From NCBI RefSeq assembly GCF_014284335.1, contig NZ_JACOGF010000002.1:638659-702658 (forward strand): DNA of 64,000 nucleotides, given 5' to 3'. Source of the stretch: Undibacterium hunanense (GTDB taxonomy: Bacteria; Pseudomonadota; Gammaproteobacteria; Burkholderiales; Burkholderiaceae_D). The position numbers and the translations under genes are program-made. The notes below the pieces were generated by a model. It searched no databases and was not told where the DNA came from. It worked only from the letters and a program-made list of their open reading frames with translations. Shown one piece after another: positions 39,061-58,574 of the stretch; within the stretch, counting starts at the first letter, position 1, and each line of letters opens with the position of its first letter.

Positions 39061-39078
39061 ATACCGTGTTCTAATTGT

Positions 39079-40078
39079 CGTCGCTCCAGCGCAGGCTGGA
39101 GCCCAGCGGCGTTTATCACGTTGCCGTACTTTGATTAAAAGATTGCCCTTCGTGGGTACTAGCCGGGTTTGGGGGCAATCAACGGCAATCTATAATATCG
39201 TCGCTCCAGCGCAGGCTGGAGCCCAGTGGCGTTCGTTGCATGCCGTACTTTGATTATAAGATTGCCCTACGTGGATACAAGCCGGGTCTCGGCCCGGCGG
39301 CCGAATTCCTTTCTTTGCTTCGCCAAAGAAAGGAATCAAAGAAAGGCGACCGCAGACTCGCCCTACGGGTGCTTACGCTACGCTTCAGCATAATTTGTGC
39401 ATCCCAAAAAATGGGAAAGCTTCGAAACTCGCTACGCTCAAACACGAAGCTTTCTGATCCATTTTCTGTGAAGCACAAATTACATCGTCCCAAGCGGTTG
39501 AAGGTCAACAACAACTTCAAAAGCAACCCCAAAGTCAAAACCAAAACCAACGTCAACACAACCTCATTCATATTTAGTTGAATGCCGTCAATTAACGATA
39601 GTGTAGGGGTTGTGGTTGTTTTTGACGTTGGGGTTGTTGTTACTGTTGTTTTTGACCTTGTTGTTGACTTTAATCCGCTTGGGACGAAGCCATTTGTGTA
39701 GTGCAGAAAATGGAAAAAGAAGGTCCGATGTTTGAGCGTAGCGAGTTGCGGACCTTCCCATTTTTTGCGCTACATAAATGGGCACTCCCGCAGGGAGCGA
39801 GTCTGCGGTCGCCTTTCTTTGAATACGTTCTTTGGCGAAGCAAAGAAAGTATTTCGGCCGCCGGGCCGAGACCCGGCTTGTGTCCACGGAGTGTAATCGA
39901 GTTAATTAACGACACGGCATATCACGACAGACACTAGGCTTCAGCCTGCGCTGGAGCGACGATAATATGATTGCCGTTATTGACCGGGACCCGGCTTGTG
40001 TCCACGAAGGGCAATCGTTTTAATAACAACTCAAGCATACAACAAACGCCACTAGGCTCCAGCCTGCGCTGGAGCGAC
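39079..40078. repeat. About 1 kb imperfect inverted repeat built of palindromic units
   Basis: Four copies of a 22-23 bp core, cgtcgctccagc-gcaggctggag, itself a hairpin (ctccagc/gctggag). Two are forward (39079-39101 and 39199-39221, exactly 120 bases apart) and two reverse (39939-39961 and 40057-40078). Between them lie inverted arms (about 39282-39500 and 39680-39876) sharing long stretches, such as the ccgggtctcggcccggcggccga block and an internal 13-bp hairpin. The centre is near 39590. Short frames inside are by-products of the repeat. It sits between convergent fahA and the anti-sigma gene. Confidence 0.85.
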
Positions 40079-46686: not shown

Positions 46687-46704
46687 CTTTCATACGCCTG
46701 ACAT
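46687..46704 (+). promoter_or_regulatory. PhoB-box candidate upstream of phnC
   Basis: CTTTCATACGCCTGACAT matches CTGTCATAAATCTGTCAC at 12 of 18 positions with the 11-base period kept. A -10-like AATACT follows after 10 bases (46715-46720). Confidence 0.55.
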
Positions 46705-46759: not shown

Positions 46760-47605
46760 ATGAAGATAGAAATCAATGGGATTTCCAAGACCTTTAAAGG
46801 CGGCTATCAGGCGCTCGACAATATAGCGCTGACATTTGCGCCGGGTGAAATGGTGGCGCTGATTGGCGCCTCCGGTTCTGGCAAGTCGACTTTATTGCGA
46901 CATATCTCTGGCCTCATCACGGCCAATGCAGACAAGAATGATATACGCCTGGGTGATCAGGTATTGCAGGCGAATGGAGTAATAGGCAGGCAGATACGGC
47001 ATTTGCGTTCGCAAATTGGTTTTGTCTTCCAGCAATTCAATCTGGTCGGGCGTTTGCCTGTATTGACCAATGTGTTGACAGGCGGCATTGCGCGCATACC
47101 CTTGTGGCGTAGTTGTTTCCGTATTTTTACCAAAGAAGAAAAAGCTCTGGGTCTGGCTGCGCTGGCAAGGGTGGGTATCGCGGAACATGCTTACAAACGT
47201 GCATCCGCCTTGTCCGGTGGTCAGCAACAACGCGCAGCGATTGCCCGTACCATAGTGCAACAGGCCAGGGTCATACTGGCCGATGAACCGATTGCCTCGC
47301 TGGATCCGGAATCTGCACGCCGCGTCATGCAGACCCTGGCTGACCTGAATCGTCAGGATGGTACGACGGTCGTGGTGTCCCTGCACCAGGTGGATGTGGC
47401 CCTGCGCTTTTGTCCGCGTACGGTTGCCCTGTCACGTGGACGTGTCGTTTATGACGGCCCTTCCTGTGAACTCACCATCCCCATGCTGCGTGATTTATAT
47501 GGTGCAGAAGCCGAAGAGTTGCTGAGCCCTGCACCTGTGAAGGCCGCCAGCGATGTGCCTGCTGGCATAGAAATTTCCCTACCCACTCTTGCGGCTGCCG
47601 CCTGA
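46760..47605 (+). CDS. phnC: Phosphonate ABC transporter, ATP-binding protein
   Basis: Energises phosphonate uptake. The 281-residue ABC ATPase has Walker [11 protein letters not shown]-loop [19 protein letters not shown] (typical of PhnC), signature [13 protein letters not shown] and Walker [13 protein letters not shown]. It is the first gene of phnCDE and lies about 55 bases past a PhoB-box candidate, as expected for phosphate-starvation control. Confidence 0.95.
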
Positions 47606-47633
47606 GTTTTCTTTCCCCATCAGGAGTATCTCC

Positions 47634-48614
47634 ATGTTTCGTAAATTCGTGCGTAGTTTCACGTTAGGCCTGGCCATGGCAGCATCCGCTTCCATCGTCA
47701 TGGCAGAAGATGCCGTCAAGACCTTGAACTTTGGCATCATTTCGACTGAATCTTCACAAAACCTGAAGCAGGACTGGCAGCCTGTGCTGGACGATATGAG
47801 CAAAAAATTAGGCATCAAGATCACTGCCTTTTTCGCCCCTGACTATGCCGGTGTCATCGAAGGCATGCGGTTCAATAAAGTGCAGTTTGCCTGGTTGGGT
47901 AACAAATCCGCGATCGAGGCCGTAGACCGCGCCAACGCTGAAGTGTTTGCACAAATGGTCAATGCTGATGGGACCGTGGGGTACTACAGCATGATCAGCG
48001 TACACAAGGACAGCCCTTATCAAACGGTGGAAGATGTATTGAAAAACGCCAAGGCGCTTAATTTTGGTATTGGTGATCCCAATTCCACATCCGGCTTCCT
48101 GGTGCCCAGTTATTATGTGTTTGCGCAAAACAATGTCAACCCGAAGTCGGCCTTCAAGACCGTGCGCAGCGCCAATCATGAAACCAATATCCTGGCTGTA
48201 GCCAACAAGCAGGTCGATGCAGCAGTCCACAGCTCGGATGTGCTGGACAGAATCATCGCGCGTCAGCCAGAAACGGCTGCTCAATTGCGTCAGGTATGGA
48301 AATCACCGTTGATCGCTGCCGATCCTATCGTCTGGCGCAAGGATTTGCCGGCAGATGTCAAAACCAAAATCAGGGATTTCTTTGTCGGCTATGGCAAAAC
48401 CGGTCCTGATGCAGCGCGTGAGAAAGCACAGTTGAATAAATTGACACTGGGTGGTTTCCAGGTGTCCAGCAATGCACAGCTGAAACCTGTGCGCCAGTTG
48501 GAACTGTTCAAGGAAAAAATCAAGATTGAAGCCGATGTTGCCATGACAGCTGACGAGAAAAAACTCAAGCTGGAAGACATCAATCGCAAGCTGACCGACA
48601 TCGCCAAATCCTGA
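47634..48614 (+). CDS. phnD: Phosphonate ABC transporter, substrate-binding protein
   Basis: Periplasmic receptor of 326 residues with a signal peptide (about 1-24, ending VMAED). Its body has the PhnD features [34 protein letters not shown] and [23 protein letters not shown], the latter being the phosphonate-contact strand. ATG 47634 is supported by AGGAG; the upstream frame lies in the intergenic spacer. It sits between phnC and phnE. Confidence 0.95.
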
Positions 48615-48618
48615 TCGC

Positions 48619-49428
48619 ATGACTACCTCACCATCCATGCGCACGCAGACAACGGCTACCATACCGGCAGCACCCAAACAGGATTTCGTCAAGCTGCTGG
48701 TCTGGGGCGTTGTCCTGGCCTTGCTGGCAATGTCCTGGGAAGGTGCTGACATGCGGCCGCTGGAACTGATACGCGACAGCGGCAATATGGTGACGTATGT
48801 AGCCAGTTTTTTTCCGCCAGATTTTCATGAATGGCGTATTTACCTGCAGGAATTGCTGGTAACCCTGCAAATCGCTGTCTGGGGTACGGTATTGGCAGTC
48901 ATATGTGCCGTGCCCCTGGGTTTGTTGAGTTCTTCCAACATCGCCCCGGCCTGGATCAGCCAGCCGGTGCGTCGTCTGATGGATGCTGCCCGCGCCATCA
49001 ATGAGATGGTGTTTGCCATGTTGTTTGTGGTGGCCGTTGGTCTGGGTCCTTTTGCTGGTGTACTGGCCCTGTTTGTGCATACCACGGGTATTTTGTCCAA
49101 GCTGTTTTCCGAAGCGGTGGAAGCCATAGATCCGCAACCGGTAGAGGGCATACGCGCCACCGGTGCTCATGCACTGGAAGAAATCGTGTACGGCGTATTG
49201 CCCCAAGTTATGCCTCTGTGGATATCGTTTGCCCTGTATCGTTTTGAATCGAATGTGCGTTCTGCTACCGTGGTTGGCATGGTAGGGGCTGGTGGCATAG
49301 GCGTTATTCTATGGGAAGTCATCCGTGCCTTTCAGTATGCACAAACCTGTGCCGTACTGTTGATGATCGTATTGACGGTCAGCCTGATCGACGTAGTGTC
49401 ATCCCGGTTGAGAAAAATTTTCATTTAA
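48619..49428 (+). CDS. phnE: Phosphonate ABC transporter, permease
   Basis: Inner-membrane permease of 269 residues with about six helices. The ABC coupling EAA-like loop is [32 protein letters not shown], and [21 protein letters not shown] is characteristic of PhnE. It starts 4 bases after phnD, with no second permease gene. The HD-domain gene follows after 50 bases. Confidence 0.95.
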
Positions 49429-49478: not shown

Positions 49479-50066
49479 ATGAATATCAAACGACGCCAGG
49501 CCCAGCCTGTTGATTTTTTCACTCTGGTCACCTGGTTACAGCAACGTGCCGGCGGATTATATGGTGGCGAAGCCATCACACAGCTCGAACACGCCTTGCA
49601 ATGTGCCAGTCAGGCGCAGCGGGAAGGGGCGACGGATGCACTGGTCGTTGCGGCCCTGCTGCACGACATCGCCCATCTGGCTGATAATGAAACGGATGAG
49701 ACTTTCCCCCACGGCGAAATGGCAGCGCAACTGTTATCCGAGCTGTTTCATACAGACGTGACCGAACCCATACGCCTGCATGTGGAAGCCAAGCGTTATC
49801 TGTGTGCTGCCGATCCCTTGTACTGGTCTGGCCTGTCACCAGCGTCACAGCGTAGCCTGATCTGGCAGGGTGGACCTTATTCTGTTGCGCAGGCAACGGA
49901 GTTCATGAACATGCCTTATGCCGAAGATGCCGTGCGCCTGCGGCTATGGGATGATGCGGCCAAAGTGATTGATGCCGTTACGCCGGATCTGGACCATTTC
50001 ATCGCCCTGATGGAAGAAATTCGTTTGCCACAGCAAGTGATCCAGCTTCAAACGGCAACAGTCTGA
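49479..50066 (+). CDS. Phosphonate-operon HD-domain protein (PhnZ-like oxygenase candidate)
   Basis: A 195-residue HD protein of the type found in phosphonate operons. Visible residues are Tyr28, Glu31, His38, His62-Asp63 (LLHDIAHL) and His78. The spacing of Tyr28/Glu31/His38/His62-Asp63 equals, with an offset of 4, the Tyr24/Glu27/His34/His58-Asp59 set I recall for PhnZ, the diiron oxygenase that cleaves 1-hydroxy-2-aminoethylphosphonate. An oxygenase role is therefore plausible. The usual partner hydroxylase (PhnY type) is absent here. It ends 16 bases from the convergent phnN fusion. Confidence 0.82.
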   Translation: MNIKRRQAQPVDFFTLVTWLQQRAGGLYGGEAITQLEHALQCASQAQREGATDALVVAALLHDIAHLADNETDETFPHGEMAAQLLSELFHTDVTEPIRLHVEAKRYLCAADPLYWSGLSPASQRSLIWQGGPYSVAQATEFMNMPYAEDAVRLRLWDDAAKVIDAVTPDLDHFIALMEEIRLPQQVIQLQTATV

Positions 50067-50082: not shown

Positions 50083-51357
50083 TCAGCTATGGTGACCAGC
50101 GACCAGAATATCGAGTAACTGCTGACCAGCCAGCTCAATCGAGCCGCTGTTGTCGATGCGGATGATATCGTTTTCTTCAGGTATGGCAAACCTGCTGCCA
50201 CGATCCAGCCGGTTCAGCAGGGCGGCACCGGATTCGCGCTGGCGTTTTTCTACCCTTTGCCTGATCAGGTCCGGGTCCGCCACTATCCAGACAATTTTTG
50301 CGTCAGGAAAAAGCTGCCTGATTTGTGGCAGATATTCGCGTGAACCGTTGACCACGACATCCTGGCCACATCTGAGCTGGACTTCAATATTCCTGCGTAT
50401 GCCATAGCAAAGTCCATTGGCCTGCCATTGCAGGCAGAAATGGCCGGCTGCAGCCGCCTGCCAATAGGCTTCCTGGCTCATGGCTTCATGTTGTTCGCTG
50501 TCATGCTGTGGACGGGTAATCACCCTTTGGGCAAACACCAGATCAGCGCTGGCTGACGCCTGGTTTTTTACCCATTGCAACAGCGTGTCCTTGCCGGCAC
50601 CAGAGGGGCCAACGACATAAAACAGTTGCCCTGTGCGTGGCAGGGCTTTTTGCTGAAATACCGCCTGGAAGGGAAAGCGTCGCCAGAAGGTCAACGGCGC
50701 ACCCGGATGTTCTTCCCTGAATATCGTCAATGCATCAAGGGTGAGCGGCTGTGTATCCAGCAGGCGGCCAAAATGTTCTTCTGCTGCCTTGCGCAAGGCA
50801 TACTGCGCATCGGCATCGAGTTCACCCAGGGTGTCGCTGAGGCTGATGTGGAAACGGTATTCTTCTTCCGTATAGGGATAGCCCCATTGCTGCAACAAGG
50901 CTTCCTGTCTGGCACTTAAGCCTGCATGCCGGCGCTTGGCCAGATAGGCAGCATCCGGTGCACTGCGCAAGACATCAAAAAAACTGACACAACGCATGGC
51001 GAGCGCATTGATTTCTGCCGTGTTGCCGGATGGACGCAAGGCCAGAAAATCTCCCATCATGCCGACCTGTAGCTTATCCAGCCTGATGCTGTGCTGCACT
51101 TTGGCAAATGCACTGGCCATGGCAATCAGTTCGTTTTCCTGAAAACCTTCCAGCAGGCTGAAAGGCGCTTTCAGTGTCGCGTGAAAGCCGTAGCGGCTGG
51201 GAGCGCTGGTCATCTTTTCCAGCATGATGTCAGGCAGGCCCGGGATATGATTTTGTGCCATACGGCCAGTCTGCATGGCATCCCGCCCCAGCCAGCGTGA
51301 ACCGGCTTCCCACCAGGCAGAGTCCGGCGCAGGACAAAAATACAGGGCGTAGCGCAT
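50083..51357 (-). CDS. phnN: DUF1045 (2H phosphoesterase-like) fused to ribose 1,5-bisphosphokinase PhnN
   Basis: A 424-residue two-domain protein. Residues 1-235 match the DUF1045 family found in phosphonate operons and carry two H-x-[T/S] motifs, HAT (59-61) and HIS (170-172), the signature of 2H cyclic phosphoesterases. Residues about 243-424 are PhnN with P-loop GPSGAGKDT (250-258), which makes PRPP from ribose 1,5-bisphosphate. phnP, the usual cyclic-phosphate esterase, is missing from the locus. The N-terminal half may supply that activity, so one chain would do both last steps (inference). The ATG overlaps the second phnM stop by one base. Confidence 0.88.
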   Translation of the reverse strand: MRYALYFCPAPDSAWWEAGSRWLGRDAMQTGRMAQNHIPGLPDIMLEKMTSAPSRYGFHATLKAPFSLLEGFQENELIAMASAFAKVQHSIRLDKLQVGMMGDFLALRPSGNTAEINALAMRCVSFFDVLRSAPDAAYLAKRRHAGLSARQEALLQQWGYPYTEEEYRFHISLSDTLGELDADAQYALRKAAEEHFGRLLDTQPLTLDALTIFREEHPGAPLTFWRRFPFQAVFQQKALPRTGQLFYVVGPSGAGKDTLLQWVKNQASASADLVFAQRVITRPQHDSEQHEAMSQEAYWQAAAAGHFCLQWQANGLCYGIRRNIEVQLRCGQDVVVNGSREYLPQIRQLFPDAKIVWIVADPDLIRQRVEKRQRESGAALLNRLDRGSRFAIPEENDIIRIDNSGSIELAGQQLLDILVAGHHS

Positions 51358-52562
51358 CACGCTGCCAGTTCCAGCGAACGCTGATGTGACAGGCGCTGTG
51401 GTTCGGCGCAAAATACCAGCTTGCCGGCGGCGATGGTGGCTATCAGGCGTGGGCTGCCATCTGCCTGCCTTTCCACCAGCACCAAGTCGGCACGTTGCTG
51501 TTCTGCGATGTGACCGCGTTCATGCAGACCCAGCACCCTGGCCGGGTTGCGCGATACCAGTTGCCATGCCTGTTCCAGGCTGCATGCACCGTCCTGCTCA
51601 AGACGGAATGGAGCGTGCAGCAGGGCAGGGTAATAATAATCAGATGCCAGGATATCGCACAGGCCACGGCGGATCGCCTCGGTAGCTGACAGGCCGCCGC
51701 AATGGCTGCCACCCAGCAAGACATTCGGTGCGCCCATGATGACATGGTTATTCAATGTATGGGCAAGCTGCAATGCTTCTTCCGTTTTCGGAAATTCACT
51801 GATCTCTGCGCCCAGTGCCTGGAAACGTTCACGGTCCTGCCTGCATTCATCATCATGCGATGCCATGGGTATGCCATGTTCCCGACAGGCCGCTGCCAGT
51901 TGCTGTATGGTCTGCACGACGCGGGTAGAACGCGATTGCGCCTTGTGCAAACGTTCCAGAAAAACCGGGACATCACAGCGCGCGCGTTCGGCATAGGTCT
52001 GCAATTTTTCTGGTGAAGCAGATTTTTTCAGAATCGATGGCAGGTGCTCATTGAAGGCAAAGAATGCCACCATGCCGGCGTTGATCCATTCCAGCGCATC
52101 ATGCAGGCCATCTGCATGGTGGTTTTCAAAACGCAGATGAATGCGATGATCAGCATGCACGTGACTGCGTTGCGCAGCCACCTGATCAAGTGTTGCCATG
52201 GCAGCATCGCGGCCACGCAAACCACCTTCCCACGAAAAGGTGACACCATGGCAGGCAGTGGTGATGCCATTGGTAATCAATTGCCTGTCGGTATCTGCAA
52301 ACGCAATATCATAGGCAAAGCTGGTAGCTGGACGCGGTTGCAACTGTCTCTCAAAGGCATCGCCATGAATATCCACCAGGCCCGGCAAGATCAGCAGGCC
52401 GCTGGCATCCAGTACCGGTAAGCCGGCATGGCTGCTAAAGCCGGATGTGCCGATGCGGGCAATTTGTGTGCTGGCCAGATGCAGGCTGGCATCACTCCAG
52501 CCATATTGGTTGTCTGCACCGTGCAGGTAACTGCCACCTTGTATCGACAAATGCGCATTCAT
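51357..52562 (-). CDS. phnM: Second PhnM-type amidohydrolase (phosphonate metabolism)
   Basis: A 401-residue amidohydrolase. It has PGLVDIHGDAFERQLQPRP (metal site), the MASHDDE segment, and GAPNVLLGGSHCGGLSATEAI, all parallel to PhnM, which releases pyrophosphate from alkylphosphonate ribose triphosphates. It differs clearly from the copy at 57432-58574 and is likely a paralogue with its own substrate preference or a separate role. It is the first gene of a reverse unit with the DUF1045-PhnN fusion, directly downstream of a PhoB-box-like promoter. AAGG precedes the ATG. Confidence 0.87.
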   Translation of the reverse strand: MNAHLSIQGGSYLHGADNQYGWSDASLHLASTQIARIGTSGFSSHAGLPVLDASGLLILPGLVDIHGDAFERQLQPRPATSFAYDIAFADTDRQLITNGITTACHGVTFSWEGGLRGRDAAMATLDQVAAQRSHVHADHRIHLRFENHHADGLHDALEWINAGMVAFFAFNEHLPSILKKSASPEKLQTYAERARCDVPVFLERLHKAQSRSTRVVQTIQQLAAACREHGIPMASHDDECRQDRERFQALGAEISEFPKTEEALQLAHTLNNHVIMGAPNVLLGGSHCGGLSATEAIRRGLCDILASDYYYPALLHAPFRLEQDGACSLEQAWQLVSRNPARVLGLHERGHIAEQQRADLVLVERQADGSPRLIATIAAGKLVFCAEPQRLSHQRSLELAA

Positions 52563-52715: not shown

Positions 52716-53183
52716 ATGAAAACTGATCCGCATATCAATCTGACACAGCAGGACAGGGCGCACTGGATGTCTGTCCTGGCCAGGGCGCCGACAGACAGGC
52801 TGGCACAGGCAGTCACACAGTTTGGTGAATTGCCGCCCTATCTATGGCTCAGGAAACCGGAAGCAGGCCTGGCCATGGTGCGGGCCAGAACTGGTGGCAG
52901 TGGTGCCCAGTTCAATCTGGGTGAAATGTCCGTGATACGTTGTGCCTTGCGCCTGGATAGCGGTGAAACCGGCATTGCCTATGTGGCTGGCCGTAATCCT
53001 CGTCATGCTGAATGGGCTGCTCTGTTTGATGCCTTGTTGCAGACCGATGCCAGATCTATGGTGCAGACAAATGTGATTGCACCACTGGAGCAGTGGCTGC
53101 AAGAAAAGCGCGCCCGTGCAGTGGCCGAAGCAAAGGCCAGCAAGGTCGAATTCATGACCATGGTACGTGGAGAAGATGCATGA
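52716..53183 (+). CDS. phnG: Carbon-phosphorus lyase complex subunit PhnG
   Basis: A 155-residue core subunit of the PhnGHIJ complex. It shows the PhnG pattern RAHWMSVLARAPTDRLAQAV, LRKPEAGLAMVRARTGGSGAQFNLGEMSVIRCALRL and GRNPRHAEWAALFDALLQ. The core converts MgATP and phosphonate into the ribose triphosphate adduct with PhnI. First gene of the seven-gene unit. It overlaps phnH by 4 bases. No ribosome site is visible before its ATG. Confidence 0.95.
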   Translation: MKTDPHINLTQQDRAHWMSVLARAPTDRLAQAVTQFGELPPYLWLRKPEAGLAMVRARTGGSGAQFNLGEMSVIRCALRLDSGETGIAYVAGRNPRHAEWAALFDALLQTDARSMVQTNVIAPLEQWLQEKRARAVAEAKASKVEFMTMVRGEDA

Positions 53184-53806
53184 ATACAGCAACAACCCAG
53201 GGCTTGCTGCCAGCCTGGAATGACAGCGTGCATGATGCACAGTCAGCATTTCGCAGTCTGTTGACCGCCATGGCAGAACCAGGCCACATACAGCAACTGA
53301 CGATCCGGTTCGAGCCCCCCGAACCCTTGCATCTGGCAACCGCTGCCGCCTGCCTGGTATTGATGGATTTTGAAACACCAGTCTGGCTGGCACCGGAATT
53401 TGATACCGACGCGTTAAAGTCATATCTGCGTTTCCATTGCGGTCTGCCGCTGGTGGCTGATCCGGCGCAAGCCCACTTTGCAGTGCTGGATACGGTGCCT
53501 GAACACCTGGACCTGAACCGCTATTCCCAGGGTAGTACCAGCTATCCGGATAAATCAGCGACTTTGCTGATACAGGTCAGCGACCTGGAAAACGGACCGG
53601 CACGCTATCTGACCGGCCCCGGCATACAAGGCCACGCCAATTTCCGCGTCAGCGGTTTGCCGGATGATTTTGTCAGCCGCTGGAACCAGAATCACGCTTC
53701 TTTCCCGCAAGGAGTGGATATCCTGTTTTGCAGTGGCAATGCAGTCTTGGGTTTGCCGCGTACCAGCCGTATTCACGATGGGGAAATGCCATGTACGTCG
53801 CAGTAA
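53180..53806 (+). CDS. phnH: Carbon-phosphorus lyase complex subunit PhnH
   Basis: A 208-residue subunit of the C-P lyase core; structurally a PLP-transferase-like fold without PLP. It contains DAQSAFRSLLTAMAEPGHI, LAPEFDTDALKSYLRFHCGLPL, GSTSYPDKSATLLIQV and LTGPGIQGHANFRVSGLP, all typical. ATG 53180 (ATGA overlap with phnG) is chosen over the longer frame, which reads antiparallel-like low-quality sequence upstream. Confidence 0.95.
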   Translation: MNTATTQGLLPAWNDSVHDAQSAFRSLLTAMAEPGHIQQLTIRFEPPEPLHLATAAACLVLMDFETPVWLAPEFDTDALKSYLRFHCGLPLVADPAQAHFAVLDTVPEHLDLNRYSQGSTSYPDKSATLLIQVSDLENGPARYLTGPGIQGHANFRVSGLPDDFVSRWNQNHASFPQGVDILFCSGNAVLGLPRTSRIHDGEMPCTSQ

Positions 53807-54969
53807 AAGGTGGCGAAAAGGCCATTGCCCAGTCCTATATAGCACTGGAAAAATTGCGCCGTGGTGATACGGCTGTACCAGAACTCAGCATCGCCCAGAT
53901 TCGCGAACAGATGTCGCTGGCGGTGGCCAGGGTGATGACAGAAGCCTCTTTGTATGACAAGGATCTGGCCGCGCTAGCCATCAAACAGGCCAGCGGTGAT
54001 CTGATAGAGGCCATCTTCCTGCTGCGTGCCTACCGCACCACCCTGCCGCGCCTGCTGGCAACCATGCCTGTCGATACCTCGGCCATGCTGATACAAAGAC
54101 GTATTTCGGCTACCTTCAAAGACGTGCCTGGCGGGCAGGTACTGGGGGCTACTTATGACTATACCCAGCGTCTGCTGGATTTTTCGCTGGTGGCAGAATC
54201 CCTGGCTGGGGCAGATCAGGCAACAGAAACGGCCTTGTCTGAAGCGAAGGCAGAAGCGGAAGCCGAAGCCTGCCCACGTGTACTGGATTTTTTGAATCAG
54301 GAAGGCCTGATCGAAGCCGATGACATGCCTGACGGCGATCCCGAACCATCCGACCTGACGCGTGATCCTTTGCAGTTTCCGGCTTCGCGCGCGCTGCGCC
54401 TGCAGAGCCTGGCGCGTGGTGACGAAGGCTTCTTGCTGGCGCTGGCATATTCCACCCAGCGCGGCTATGCCCGCAATCATCCGTTTGCCGGTGAGATACG
54501 CCACGGCCTTGTTGATGTGCAGGTGATACCGGAAGAACTGGGTTTTGCCATCGATATCGGTGAAATTGAAATTACCGAATGCCAGATGGTGAACCAGTTT
54601 GCCGGCTCGCATACCGAAGCGCCACGATTCACACGCGGCTATGGCCTCAGTTTTGGGTATGGTGAACGCAAAGCCATGGCGATGGCCCTGGTTGATCGCG
54701 CACTGCGTGCCGAAGAACTCAAGGAAGAAATTACGGCACCGGCACAAATGCAGGAATTTGTTTTGTACCATGCCGACAATGTAGAAGCTTCCGGTTTTGT
54801 CCAGCATTTGAAATTGCCCCATTACGTGGATTTTCAGTCTGAACTGAATCTGCTGCGCAGCCTGCGGCAAGCAATACAGAAAAACCAGCAAGAGCAGGCC
54901 CCCACGATAGAAGATGAAGTTAGTACAGCAGATGATCCAGAAAACAAATCAGGTCAGAAAGCCGCATGA
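53791..54969 (+). CDS. phnI: Carbon-phosphorus lyase complex subunit PhnI
   Basis: The nucleosidase-like subunit that couples phosphonate to ribose triphosphate, releasing adenine. The 392-residue protein starts MYVAVKGGEKAI, the invariant PhnI N-terminus, and contains LSIAQIREQMSLAVARVMTEASLYD, SLARGDEGFLLALAYSTQRGYARNHPFAGEIRHG and FGYGERKAMAMALVDRAL. The C-terminal tail is Gln/Glu-rich. It overlaps phnH by 16 bases and phnJ by 4. Confidence 0.96.
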   Translation: MYVAVKGGEKAIAQSYIALEKLRRGDTAVPELSIAQIREQMSLAVARVMTEASLYDKDLAALAIKQASGDLIEAIFLLRAYRTTLPRLLATMPVDTSAMLIQRRISATFKDVPGGQVLGATYDYTQRLLDFSLVAESLAGADQATETALSEAKAEAEAEACPRVLDFLNQEGLIEADDMPDGDPEPSDLTRDPLQFPASRALRLQSLARGDEGFLLALAYSTQRGYARNHPFAGEIRHGLVDVQVIPEELGFAIDIGEIEITECQMVNQFAGSHTEAPRFTRGYGLSFGYGERKAMAMALVDRALRAEELKEEITAPAQMQEFVLYHADNVEASGFVQHLKLPHYVDFQSELNLLRSLRQAIQKNQQEQAPTIEDEVSTADDPENKSGQKAA

Positions 54970-55913
54970 TGACTAGCCTATTTTCACAAAGTGCTGAGGC
55001 CAGCGAAGTGGACGCACACGATCCGGCGCATGCAACACCGCAGTCAGGCTCAGGTCGTAATGTGGCAGAAGCTGGTTATAACTTTGCCTACCTGGATGAA
55101 CAAACCAAGCGCATGATACGCCGCGCCATCCTGAAGGCTGTCGCCATACCGGGTTATCAAGTGCCTTTCGGGGGCCGTGAAATGCCTTTGCCATATGGCT
55201 GGGGTACCGGTGGCATACAGGTGACAGCTGCCATCATCGGCCAGGACGATGTGTTGAAAGTCATCGACCAGGGTTCGGACGATACCACCAATGCCGTCAA
55301 TATCCGCCGCTTCTTCAAGCGCACCACGGGTGTCGCCACGACAGAAAAAACCACTGAGGCAAGCGTCATACAGACGCGCCACCGGATACCGGAAACACCA
55401 CTGGCCGCCGGGCAGATCATGGTCTACCAGGTGCCGATTCCCGAGCCGCTGCGCTGGCTGGAACCAAGCGAAACCGAAACACGGAAGTATCATGCCATGG
55501 CTGATTATGGGCTGATGAGCGTCAAGCTGTATGAAGACATCGCCCGTTTGGGAAAGATTGAAACGTCCTACGATTATCCGGTCATCGTCAATGGTCGTTA
55601 TCTGATGCGTCCTTCACCCATTCCTAAATTTGATAATCCAAAAATGCATCAGAATCCGGCCTTGCAACTGTTTGGGGCCGGGCGCGAAAAACGCATTTTT
55701 GCAGTACCGCCGTATACCGATGTCAAAAGCCTGGATTTTGAAGATTATCCTTTTGAAATCGAACGCTGGGAACACCGTTGCGCTATGTGTGATGCAGACG
55801 ACAGTTTTCTGGATGAAGTGATCGTCGATGACCAGGGTGTGCGCATGTTTGTATGCAGTGACACTGACTATTGCCGTACACGTCGTGAAACCCAGGGCAA
55901 GGCAGAGGCATGA
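54966..55913 (+). CDS. phnJ: Carbon-phosphorus lyase (radical SAM) PhnJ
   Basis: The enzyme that breaks the C-P bond using SAM and an iron-sulfur cluster. The 315-residue protein carries Cys272, Cys275, Cys297 and Cys303, spaced C-x2-C-x21-C-x5-C exactly as in the characterised enzyme. A glycine in GWGTGGIQVT (near residue 82) fits the glycyl-radical position. An extra N-terminal arm of about 30 residues precedes the conserved YNFAYLDEQTKRMIRRAILKA. It overlaps phnI and phnK. Confidence 0.97.
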   Translation: MMTSLFSQSAEASEVDAHDPAHATPQSGSGRNVAEAGYNFAYLDEQTKRMIRRAILKAVAIPGYQVPFGGREMPLPYGWGTGGIQVTAAIIGQDDVLKVIDQGSDDTTNAVNIRRFFKRTTGVATTEKTTEASVIQTRHRIPETPLAAGQIMVYQVPIPEPLRWLEPSETETRKYHAMADYGLMSVKLYEDIARLGKIETSYDYPVIVNGRYLMRPSPIPKFDNPKMHQNPALQLFGAGREKRIFAVPPYTDVKSLDFEDYPFEIERWEHRCAMCDADDSFLDEVIVDDQGVRMFVCSDTDYCRTRRETQGKAEA

Positions 55914-56701
55914 TGCACATTATGGAAGACAGAAGTCCACTGTTGCAGGCGATTGATGTCAGCAAGTTTTATGCGGGCAAACTGGCTTGTGGACCGGTCA
56001 GTCTGGACCTGTATCCGGGTGAAGTACTGGGTATAGTCGGTGAATCAGGTTCAGGCAAATCCACTCTGTTGAATTGCCTTGCCGGCCAACTGGCACCGGA
56101 ACAGGGGCAGGTGCTGTTTCATACGCGTGATGAAGGTGTGGTTGAACTGTTTTCCATCAGCGAAGCCAGGCGACGCCTGCTTTCGCGCACCGACTGGGGC
56201 TTTGTGCACCAGAGCGCCAGAGATGGTTTGCGCGTCGAAGTATCTGCCGGTGCGAATGTCGGTGAACGCCTGATGGCAGTCGGCGCCCGGCACTACGGCA
56301 AGATACGTGCTGAAGCCACAGACTGGCTGCAAAGAGTGGAAATCGATGTCTCACGCATTGATGATTTGCCGCGCGATTTTTCTGGTGGCATGCAACAGCG
56401 CCTGCAAATTGCCCGCAATCTGGTGACCAAACCGCGTCTGATCTTCATGGATGAACCGACCGCCAGCCTGGATGTATCCGTGCAGGCGCGCCTGCTGGAT
56501 TTGTTACGGCAACTGGTGTCGCAATTGCAGGTTGCTGCCGTCATCGTGACCCATGACCTGGCCGTGGCACGCCTGCTGGCCCACCGCCTGATGGTGATGC
56601 GTCAGGGGCAGGTGGTGGAACAGGGTCTGACCGATCAGGTGCTTGATGATCCGCAACATCCCTACACCCAGCTACTGGTTTCTTCCGTCCTGCAGGCATG
56701 A
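55910..56701 (+). CDS. phnK: C-P lyase-associated ABC ATPase PhnK
   Basis: A 263-residue ABC-type protein that binds the PhnGHIJ core. It has Walker A GESGSGKST, Q-loop WGFVHQSARDGLRVEVSAGANVGERLMA (the PhnK-specific ARDGLR), signature FSGGMQQRLQIAR and Walker B LIFMDEPTASLD. No permease partner exists, consistent with a structural or energetic role in the lyase complex. Two adjacent ATGs (55910 and 55913) overlap the phnJ stop. Confidence 0.95.
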   Translation: MMHIMEDRSPLLQAIDVSKFYAGKLACGPVSLDLYPGEVLGIVGESGSGKSTLLNCLAGQLAPEQGQVLFHTRDEGVVELFSISEARRRLLSRTDWGFVHQSARDGLRVEVSAGANVGERLMAVGARHYGKIRAEATDWLQRVEIDVSRIDDLPRDFSGGMQQRLQIARNLVTKPRLIFMDEPTASLDVSVQARLLDLLRQLVSQLQVAAVIVTHDLAVARLLAHRLMVMRQGQVVEQGLTDQVLDDPQHPYTQLLVSSVLQA

Positions 56702-56710
56702 GGAAAGCAT

Positions 56711-57421
56711 ATGTCACGACGAATTGAAGTGAATGGCCTGAGCAAGGATTTCACCCTGCATTTGCAGGGCGGCCAGCAGATGTCCATCCTGTCCGGCATA
56801 GACATGCAGGTGGATGCCGGTGAATGTGTGGTGATCCATGCACCATCCGGTGCCGGCAAGAGTACCTTGCTGCGCAGCCTGTATGCGAATTATCGCGCCA
56901 GCAGCGGCCAGGTCAATATCTGGCATGACGGTGCATGGGTGGATGTGCAGTCCGCCCCGGCAAGACAGGTGCTGACTGTGCGGCATCATACCCTGGGTTT
57001 TGTCACCCAGTTCCTGCGCGTAATACCCCGCATTTCCACACTGGATCTGGTGGCCGAACCCCTGATCAATCGCGGCGTGGAAAAACAGGTCGCACATGAA
57101 CAGGCGGAAGAATTATTGTCGCGCCTGCGCATACCAAAGCGCTTGTGGCACATCCCGCCAGCCACTTTTTCTGGCGGTGAGCAACAGCGGGTAAACATTG
57201 CGCGCACCATGATTTGTGATTATCCGATTTTATTGCTGGACGAACCCACCGCCTCACTGGATGAAGCAAATCGTGGCACAGTGATAGACATGATCAATGC
57301 AGCGCGTGAACGCGGTGTAGCTGTCGTCGGCATTTTCCATGATGAAGCAGTGCGCCAGGCCCTGGCGACCCGGATTTTTTCCATACCCGCAGCGCAAGCT
57401 GTTTCTTTGGTCGCAGCATGA
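56711..57421 (+). CDS. phnL: C-P lyase-associated ABC ATPase PhnL
   Basis: A 236-residue ABC protein that joins PhnK on the lyase core. It has FTLHLQGGQQMSIL near the start, Walker A APSGAGKST, LGFVTQFLRVIPRISTLDLVAEPL, signature FSGGEQQRVNIAR and Walker B LLLDEPTASLD. It starts 9 bases after phnK with GAGGAAAG before the ATG, and phnM follows. Confidence 0.95.
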   Translation: MSRRIEVNGLSKDFTLHLQGGQQMSILSGIDMQVDAGECVVIHAPSGAGKSTLLRSLYANYRASSGQVNIWHDGAWVDVQSAPARQVLTVRHHTLGFVTQFLRVIPRISTLDLVAEPLINRGVEKQVAHEQAEELLSRLRIPKRLWHIPPATFSGGEQQRVNIARTMICDYPILLLDEPTASLDEANRGTVIDMINAARERGVAVVGIFHDEAVRQALATRIFSIPAAQAVSLVAA

Positions 57422-57431
57422 CGAATAGAAT

Positions 57432-58574
57432 ATGAACAGAATAGAAAACGCACACATCGTCCTGGCTGACGAAATCATGCATGGCATGATGGTGACAGAG
57501 CAGGGCAGGATAAGCGATCTGGCAGAAGCCGCCCGTATGTCTGCTGTAACTGCAACCGAAGACTGGGAAGGCGATTATCTGCTGCCCGGCATGGTAGAAC
57601 TGCATACCGATAATCTGGAAAAGCACTTGATGCCCCGACCCAAGGTCAGGTGGCCTACACTGCCTGCCATTCTTGCGCATGATGTCCAGGTCGCTGCATC
57701 TGGCATTACCACGGTGCTGGATGCGATTTCAGTCGGTGATATCGATACCGACAGCATGCGTAATGACACTTTACAAGCCTGTACTGAAGGCTTGCGTCTG
57801 GCCGCTGATGCCGGTATTTTGCGTGCCGATCATTTCCTGCACATGCGTCTGGAACTGGCAGAAGAAAATCTGCTGGACATGTTTGCCCCTTATCTGAATG
57901 ACGACAGATTGAAACTGGTTTCGCTGATGGACCATACTCCTGGCCAAAGGCAATGGACAGATCTGAGCCATTATCGCACCTATGTATCCGGCAAGCGTGG
58001 CTGGAGCGAGGATAAGGTCGAATCCATGCTTGAACATCTGTTCATTCGTCAGCAAGCCTATGCTGCATCCAATCGTCGCAGCATAGTCAGCAGTTGTCGC
58101 GCTCTGGATAATCCCGTGCCTCTGGCGACCCATGATGACACAACGGTAGAGCATGTGGCCGAAGGCGTCGACGATGGTGTGACGATTTCCGAATTCCCGA
58201 CCACCGTGGCTGCTGCCAAGGCTGCGCGTGAACAAGGCCTGGGCATCATCATGGGCGCACCAAATGTGGTGCGTGGCGGATCGCATTCGGGCAATGTATC
58301 TGCTGCTGAACTCGCCAGACTCGATTTACTGGATGTATTGTCGTCCGATTATGTTCCAGCCAGCCTGTTGCATGCGGCTTTCCTGTTGCAGGATGAAGGC
58401 TTCAGCCTGCCCAAGGCTGTGGCAACCGTGACGCGTAATCCGGCCCGCATGATAGGTCTGCATGACAGGGGAGAAATTGCCGTGGGCTTGCGTGCCGACT
58501 ATTTGCGTGTGCGCGTGGTGCAGGGCATACCTGTGGTAATGGGTGTGTGGAAGGCGGGGCGGCAGATCGCTTGA
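57432..58574 (+). CDS. phnM: Alpha-D-ribose 1-methylphosphonate 5-triphosphate diphosphatase PhnM
   Basis: Removes pyrophosphate from the ribose triphosphate adduct before C-P cleavage. The 380-residue amidohydrolase matches the canonical enzyme: PGMVELHTDNLEKHLMPRPKVRW, AGILRADHFLHMRLEL, PLATHDDTTVEHV, GAPNVVRGGSHSGNVSAAELA. It is the last gene of the phnGHIJKLM unit and ends at a strong terminator. It is the standard copy, whereas the gene at 51357-52562 is the divergent one. Confidence 0.96.
   Translation: MNRIENAHIVLADEIMHGMMVTEQGRISDLAEAARMSAVTATEDWEGDYLLPGMVELHTDNLEKHLMPRPKVRWPTLPAILAHDVQVAASGITTVLDAISVGDIDTDSMRNDTLQACTEGLRLAADAGILRADHFLHMRLELAEENLLDMFAPYLNDDRLKLVSLMDHTPGQRQWTDLSHYRTYVSGKRGWSEDKVESMLEHLFIRQQAYAASNRRSIVSSCRALDNPVPLATHDDTTVEHVAEGVDDGVTISEFPTTVAAAKAAREQGLGIIMGAPNVVRGGSHSGNVSAAELARLDLLDVLSSDYVPASLLHAAFLLQDEGFSLPKAVATVTRNPARMIGLHDRGEIAVGLRADYLRVRVVQGIPVVMGVWKAGRQIA

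Follow-up and report, generated by a model that had tools for sequence, protein, structure and literature searches.

A DUF1045-PhnN fusion as a probable replacement for PhnP in the C-P lyase pathway of Undibacterium hunanense

The window, a stretch of 64,000 nucleotides from Undibacterium hunanense, carries a C-P lyase locus. Its core lies on the plus strand and comprises phnG (52716-53183, PF06754), phnH (53180-53806, TIGR03292, with a likely ATG start within the open reading frame 53093-53806), phnI (53791-54969, with a likely ATG start within the open reading frame 53728-54969), phnJ (54966-55913, PF06007, 494.3 bits), phnK (55910-56701), phnL (56711-57421, TIGR02324) and the canonical phnM, phnM1 (57432-58574, NF011984 and TIGR02318). 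The phnGHIJKLM set is therefore represented in full, with PhnI and PhnK assigned only by position, phnI lying between phnH and phnJ, and by joint profiles with the E. coli proteins, in each of which the window's own frame was one of the two seeds. Also on the plus strand are phnC (46760-47605, TIGR02315), phnD (47589-48614, PF12974), whose frame opens with TTG and whose true start is probably slightly downstream, and phnE (48619-49428, TIGR01097). The gene that follows phnE encodes an HD-domain oxygenase of the Phn-HD/PhnZ group (49479-50066, plus strand), its 203.1 bits falling slightly under the cut-off of 214.6; relatives of this oxygenase adjoin phnCDE in other clusters. The minus strand holds a second phnM, phnM2 (51357-52562), which NCBIfam places in the NF011987 subfamily and which is directly upstream of the gene that encodes PhnN as part of a fusion. 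The inventory of the earlier note, phnGHIJKLM, phnCDE and phnN with no phnP in the locus, was thus borne out by profile matches and gene positions.

A Pho-box-like site upstream of phnC (46687-46704, plus strand) agrees with 12 of 14 consensus bases, a score reached by none of 500 shuffled sequences; 14 regions were scanned without correction. The spacer between phnM2 and phnG contains a weak site of 10/14 bases, equalled in 77 of 500 shuffles; the corresponding spacer of another locus (L143) has a site of 12/14 bases that no shuffle out of 500 matched. Elsewhere in the window, at 39078-39950, there is a pair of 102-nt inverted repeats, 91% complementary, together with shorter nested ones and a direct repeat with a spacing of 120 bp, which looks like an interspersed repeat element.

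The fusion gene (50083-51357, minus strand) was delimited from the list of open reading frames and from Pfam and NCBIfam profile matches. Stop codons interrupt the reading of the plus strand, and the open frame is that of the minus strand. The longest frame, 50083-51411, begins with TTG, but translation more naturally starts at the ATG at 51357, which gives a protein of 424 amino acids. This ATG overlaps the stop codon of phnM2 as TGATG, so that translation of the two genes is probably coupled. Residues 1-235 (50653-51357, minus strand) form a DUF1045 domain of the 2H phosphoesterase type with His59/Thr61 and His170/Ser172, and residues from about 243 to 418 (50104-50631, minus strand) form a PhnN domain of the ribose 1,5-bisphosphokinase family. 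The two H-x-[T/S] motifs that had been noted in the N-terminal half, HAT at 59-61 and HIS at 170-172, are present in the translated frame. The protein scores 156.9 bits with PF06299 (DUF1045), against a Pfam gathering cut-off of 24.3, and 186.2 bits with TIGR02322 (PhnN), against an NCBIfam cut-off of 156, and the P-loop GPSGAGKD of the kinase is intact. With TIGR03223 (Phn_opern_protn) it reaches 236.3 bits, slightly below the cut-off of 248.95, and it is for this reason filed under PF06299 and not under TIGR03223. The PhnP family, TIGR03307, is absent from the five NCBIfam families that match the fusion at E up to 0.001; the protein may function like PhnP, yet by family it is not a PhnP. A chance or artefactual origin of the fusion was ruled out, since both domains lie in a single open frame and exceed the PF06299 and TIGR02322 cut-offs, and since the same fusion occurs in 12 of 80 loci that had been fetched for their likeness to it.

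The predicted structure of the fusion has a pLDDT of 94.7, that of the DUF1045 domain alone 96.4. Top structural matches of the DUF1045 model were YjcG (Z 14.8), the Arabidopsis Appr>p cyclic phosphodiesterase (Z 13.6), a 2'-5' RNA ligase-like protein of P. horikoshii (Z 13.5) and LigT (Z 13.3), and the kinase half of the fusion model matches guanylate kinases. In the model, the DUF1045 domain is a 2H fold, and its two motifs are those of the 2H phosphoesterase superfamily. With the domain as query, at E up to 1, a sequence search of the PDB gave only chance-level matches, and with an alignment of relatives (A2) it gave none; the 2H assignment therefore rests on the predicted structure, the motifs and weak matches to Pfam families of 2'-5' RNA ligases. 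Among 120 relatives from a family search, His59 is conserved in 118, Thr61 in 114 and His170 in 117. We base the claim of conservation on these rows and not on A2, which consists of 51 of 73 prepared rows plus the window (a further alignment, A3, is a smaller set). In A2 all three residues are invariant (52/52), an invariance that is partly built in for the first motif because RYGFHATL was the pattern used to find the loci.

The Arabidopsis enzyme (1fsi, 1jh6, 1jh7) shares the 2H fold with DUF1045, 1jh6 matching over 167 residues, but the two are only 12-13% identical, and DUF1045 exceeds the plant enzyme in length and is associated with phosphonate genes. Appr>p has a ribose 1,2-cyclic phosphate ring, as does 5-phosphoribosyl 1,2-cyclic phosphate (PRcP), which makes PRcP a chemically plausible substrate of DUF1045. 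The retention of the catalytic residues bears on a different explanation, according to which a PHP-type phosphodiesterase similar to PhnPP, itself an enzyme of this type, opens PRcP from elsewhere in the genome and the DUF1045 half merely supports PhnN. A support domain would have no need of catalytic residues, yet the window protein and almost every relative have retained them, and we regard this explanation as very improbable.

PhnP, a beta-lactamase-fold metalloenzyme, has the same expected reaction and the same position in the pathway as is proposed for DUF1045, from which it differs in that DUF1045 has a predicted 2H fold and does not carry the PhnP set of motifs. The earlier note had suggested looking for phnP in the rest of the genome. 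Across its 108 contigs, listed as 100% complete, no match to TIGR03307 exceeded the cut-off of 272.25 bits; the best reached 25.7 bits and belongs to a beta-lactamase-fold protein with weak matches to ribonuclease Z and cAMP phosphodiesterase. A hidden PhnP is thereby rejected at the level of the family. In profile searches PhnJ occurs once in the genome, at the locus described, and PhnN exceeds its cut-off once, in the fused copy. A second, unfused DUF1045 gene, absent from the earlier note, was found on another contig (C75) with 184.6 bits for PF06299 and 264.7 bits for TIGR03223. It is divergent from a third phnM, 67% identical to phnM1, with the gene of a solute-binding protein between them (L004:7488-10582). 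The two DUF1045 domains of the genome are 49% identical to each other, and in a tree of 195 DUF1045 rows the pair on C75 groups with phnM-DUF1045 pairs of Undibacterium, beside the fused clade of the window.

The idea that DUF1045 acts in place of PhnP has already appeared in three papers (PMC3840354, PMC8235418, PMC10574752). The first proposes "rcsF", a 2H phosphoesterase with no relation to PhnP, as the enzyme that fills the place of PhnP in clusters that have no phnP, and describes a Rhodobacterales fosmid with rcsF and without phnP that enables an E. coli mutant deleted for phnHIJKLMNOP to grow on methylphosphonate, a result obtained with the whole fosmid (PMC3840354). We infer that this rcsF is DUF1045. 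The same substitution is put forward for a DUF1045 protein that adjoins phnM, with reference to a review (PMC8235418), and a SEED survey of 54 operons is cited in which PhnP occurs in 27 and rcsF in the 16 that are devoid of PhnP (PMC10574752). A DUF1045 protein is increased together with PhnI, PhnJ, PhnL and PhnM under phosphorus stress (PMC10132767), and ribose 1,2-cyclic phosphate accumulates in a phnP strain of E. coli (PMC3463581). The DUF1045, or rcsF, of C-P lyase operons (PF06299, TIGR03223) belongs to the same Pfam family as the window copy and is assigned the same role of a PhnP analogue; the window copy differs in its in-frame fusion to PhnN, in its score slightly below TIGR03223 and in being one of two DUF1045 domains in the genome. 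The C-terminal half of the fusion lies over the cut-off of PhnN (TIGR02322) and has a guanylate-kinase fold in the model; the PhnN of E. coli stands alone, whereas that of the window is the second half of a larger protein. Neither the DUF1045-PhnN fusion nor its repeated origin was found in the literature searched, though the review of Hove-Jensen (2014) may mention the fusion.

An anticorrelation between DUF1045 and phnP, for which the earlier note had suggested a survey, was found in two samples. Among the 397 genomes of the phylum sample, 103 have a PhnJ over the cut-off; 76 of these carry DUF1045, 25 PhnP, none both and 2 neither. The 359 genomes of the order sample include 37 with PhnJ, of which 25 have DUF1045, 9 PhnP, 1 both (G664) and 4 neither, 2 of the last at a contig edge. 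The samples share 6 PhnJ genomes, and their union, counted by hand, amounts to 134 PhnJ genomes with DUF1045 in 96, PhnP in 33, both in 1 and neither in 6. In 14 control genomes DUF1045 does not occur, and PhnP exceeds the cut-off in E. coli only. Fisher tests of the exclusion yielded p = 6e-22 (phylum) and 1e-4 (order), values that ignore kinship and overstate the exclusion, because the exclusion is clustered by ancestry: in a PhnJ tree whose 131 rows include 113 with DUF1045 and 11 with PhnP, the label for one or the other requires only 3 changes. The tree excluded L084, L085, L116 and all loci without exactly one long PhnJ; weak DUF1045 matches in G180, G234, G349 and G317, all below 40 bits, and a PhnJ fragment in G040 had been dropped before the counts.

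TIGR03307 matches below the cut-off were excluded from the PhnP counts. In the phylum sample they account for 20 of the 45 genomes with a match at E up to 1e-20, and the four of them with PhnJ (G205, G227, G303, G307) all carry DUF1045; in the order sample they account for 9 of the 18 genomes with a match at E up to 1e-10, 8 of the 9 with DUF1045 and one, G566, with neither gene. By their coordinates, all 13 of these matches lie on a contig other than that of PhnJ or, in G606, more than 2 Mb away from it. The one genome with both genes, G664, is of the same genus as the window; it has a PhnP-type C-P lyase cluster with intact PhnP motifs and, unlinked to it, a phnM-DUF1045 pair (L053, L034). 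Several PhnJ genomes have DUF1045 away from the fetched C-P lyase cluster, and four clusters (L021, L022, L050, L051) have neither PhnP nor DUF1045, L050 also being without a nearby phnN. Second copies of DUF1045 with no annotated phn gene nearby were seen at eight loci (L065, L070, L079, L088, L096, L102, L106, L114), seven of them in family f59.

Only one annotated C-P lyase cluster, in a gammaproteobacterial MAG (L153), contains both DUF1045 and a relative of PhnP, in the order phnJKLM-DUF1045-phnN-phnP. The PhnP relative (L153:5516-6271) is an open frame of 252 amino acids within the cluster that scores 117.9 bits with TIGR03307, below the cut-off. Gone from it are the THxHxDH motif, the histidine conserved next after it and a conserved aspartate, all of which are retained in the 11 other aligned PhnP rows; only the final THxSH motif is kept. 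The missing residues are metal ligands in the PhnP structure. Relaxed selection following a replacement would be expected to produce such decay, but this is a single case in one MAG.

For 127 DUF1045 genes in C-P lyase clusters, the next annotated phn gene is phnM or phnN in 121; phnM is a neighbour in 73 and phnN in 81. In 54 of the 127 a same-strand phnN directly follows DUF1045, and 10 of these 54 pairs form a single open reading frame, a number that is enriched because the loci are a non-random set including those fetched for likeness to the fusion with the pattern RYGFHATL. The 12 fused loci among the 80 fetched include Herminiimonas, Noviherbaspirillum and Glaciimonas; two of them, L149 and L151, were taken to be identical with G450 and G577. 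From the trees and the cluster counts L149, L151, L202, L209 and L216 were removed as duplicates, along with DUF1045 rows below 60 bits. In the DUF1045 tree the fusion label requires 4 changes, the tree being a quick one without bootstraps in which several forks between groups are weak. The window fusion lies in a clade (SH-aLRT 98) of seven fused rows, five of them from Oxalobacteraceae. Outside this clade, L162 and L152 are fused and each has unfused rows as neighbours, and L148, L150, L032 and L035 form one fused group. PhnN is a separate protein in E. coli and in most of the clusters surveyed.

The frequency of phnM beside DUF1045, nearly that of phnN (73 and 81 of 127), might suggest that the substrate of DUF1045 is another cyclic or 2'-linked phosphate connected with PhnM, for example a side product of ribosyl-phosphonate chemistry, and that PRcP is opened by an unrecognised enzyme. 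DUF1045-phnM pairs where PhnJ was not found fit such a function, as do two genomes of family f19 (G320, G323) whose C-P lyase is accompanied by neither PhnP nor DUF1045, for which another solution to PRcP, or none, is possible. However, the recurrent fusion partner is PhnN, the user of the ring-opening product, the PhnP relative is degenerate in the sole cluster that also holds DUF1045, and the fosmid complementation in PMC3840354 likewise speaks for the opening of PRcP. Another substrate in place of PRcP is therefore improbable in our judgement. The earlier note had also cited the pairing with a second phnM as support for the replacement of PhnP. The pairing is real, but it carries less weight than was claimed, since such pairs occur also without a PhnJ match.

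A role in addition to that in C-P lyase is suggested by the genomes without PhnJ. DUF1045 occurs in 11 such genomes of the phylum sample, and 17 of 50 further DUF1045 genomes, chosen from 80 for their gene arrangement, have no PhnJ match; in none of the 50 does PhnP exceed the cut-off. Among the 17 are 13 with phnM beside DUF1045, 3 with the fusion (L144, L145, L146) and 1 with a lone gene. Many of the genomes without a PhnJ match are drafts or MAGs, so that absence of PhnJ is no proof. Five of the 13 pairs come from Undibacterium isolates (U. rivi, U. rugosum, U. aquatile, U. oligocarboniphilum and U. squillarum) with related flanking genes. In Noviherbaspirillum massiliense, which has no PhnJ match, a lone fusion adjoins PstS-like, PhoU and PhoB-like genes (L146:1131-9284), and in Herminiimonas sp. 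KBW02 the fusion stands alone; the lone fusions have Pho-box-like scores of 9/14 and 10/14 bases. A MAG without a PhnJ match (L145) combines two phnM genes, the DUF1045-PhnN fusion and phnCDE with no phnG to phnL between them. From the pairs and the three fusions an additional role outside C-P lyase appears likely, and, on this sequence evidence, PRcP derived from PhnJ is probably not the sole substrate of DUF1045.

One may go further and suppose, tentatively, that the pairs and fusions constitute a salvage of ribosyl 1,2-cyclic phosphates, such as cyclised PRPP, that is free of C-P lyase, and that C-P lyase recruited this route in replacement of PhnP, leaving at least one decayed copy of the latter. 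The salvage would then be the primary, ancestral job of DUF1045 and its use in C-P lyase secondary, which is compatible with the replacement of PhnP and which we hold to be possible, though less likely than not. PRPP decomposition yields a cyclic product, and in a specific form of this explanation, to which we give no greater credence, DUF1045 with PhnN would be a repair enzyme of PRPP, for example for that product; spontaneous cyclisation of PRPP was not found in the literature searched. The pairs kept in Undibacterium without a PhnJ match, five isolates included, agree with a salvage function, as do the lone fusions of N. massiliense, beside genes of the PstS, PhoU and PhoB type, and of Herminiimonas, and the frequent occurrence of DUF1045 with neither phnM nor phnN nearby (23 of 121 rows). 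On the other hand, DUF1045 lies inside a C-P lyase cluster in 127 of the 195 tree rows, repair alone leaves both the mutual exclusion with PhnP and the paired PhnM unexplained, and none of nine phnM-DUF1045 spacers scanned has an outstanding Pho-box-like site, save that of L034 with 11/14 bases.

The explanation that we favour, and consider quite likely on the basis of sequences and models, is that the fusion catalyses both final steps of the C-P lyase pathway as a bifunctional enzyme in which DUF1045 replaces PhnP. PhnJ would form PRcP, which the N-terminal domain, acting as a 2H cyclic phosphodiesterase, would convert to ribose 1,5-bisphosphate; the ring would be opened by His59 and His170, probably without a metal, and the C-terminal PhnN kinase would phosphorylate ribose 1,5-bisphosphate to PRPP. 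The order of the domains is that of the proposed reactions. The domain would thus be a non-homologous replacement of the beta-lactamase-fold PhnP, as the earlier note had surmised, and the lack of a genomic PhnP over the cut-off, the near exclusion of the two genes, the 2H model, the conserved motifs, the recurrent fusion of adjacent genes, the fosmid complementation and the decay in L153 all argue for it. The substrate, the direction of ring opening and the catalysis of DUF1045 we infer.

As far as our searches show, the following are new: a fused architecture that requires four changes in the tree, a PhnP that has decayed, the almost complete mutual exclusion across 134 genomes, and phnM-DUF1045 pairs in genomes without a PhnJ match. 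The degenerate PhnP beside DUF1045, together with the repeated fusions, is good genomic evidence for non-homologous replacement. If the explanation is true, it accounts for how the pathway is finished in C-P lyase systems devoid of PhnP, which are the larger part of those sampled, and it would add a bifunctional enzyme that takes the cyclic product to PRPP. The pairs without a PhnJ match would point beyond phosphonate degradation, to ribosyl cyclic phosphates that arise in ordinary metabolism from a source not yet recognised.
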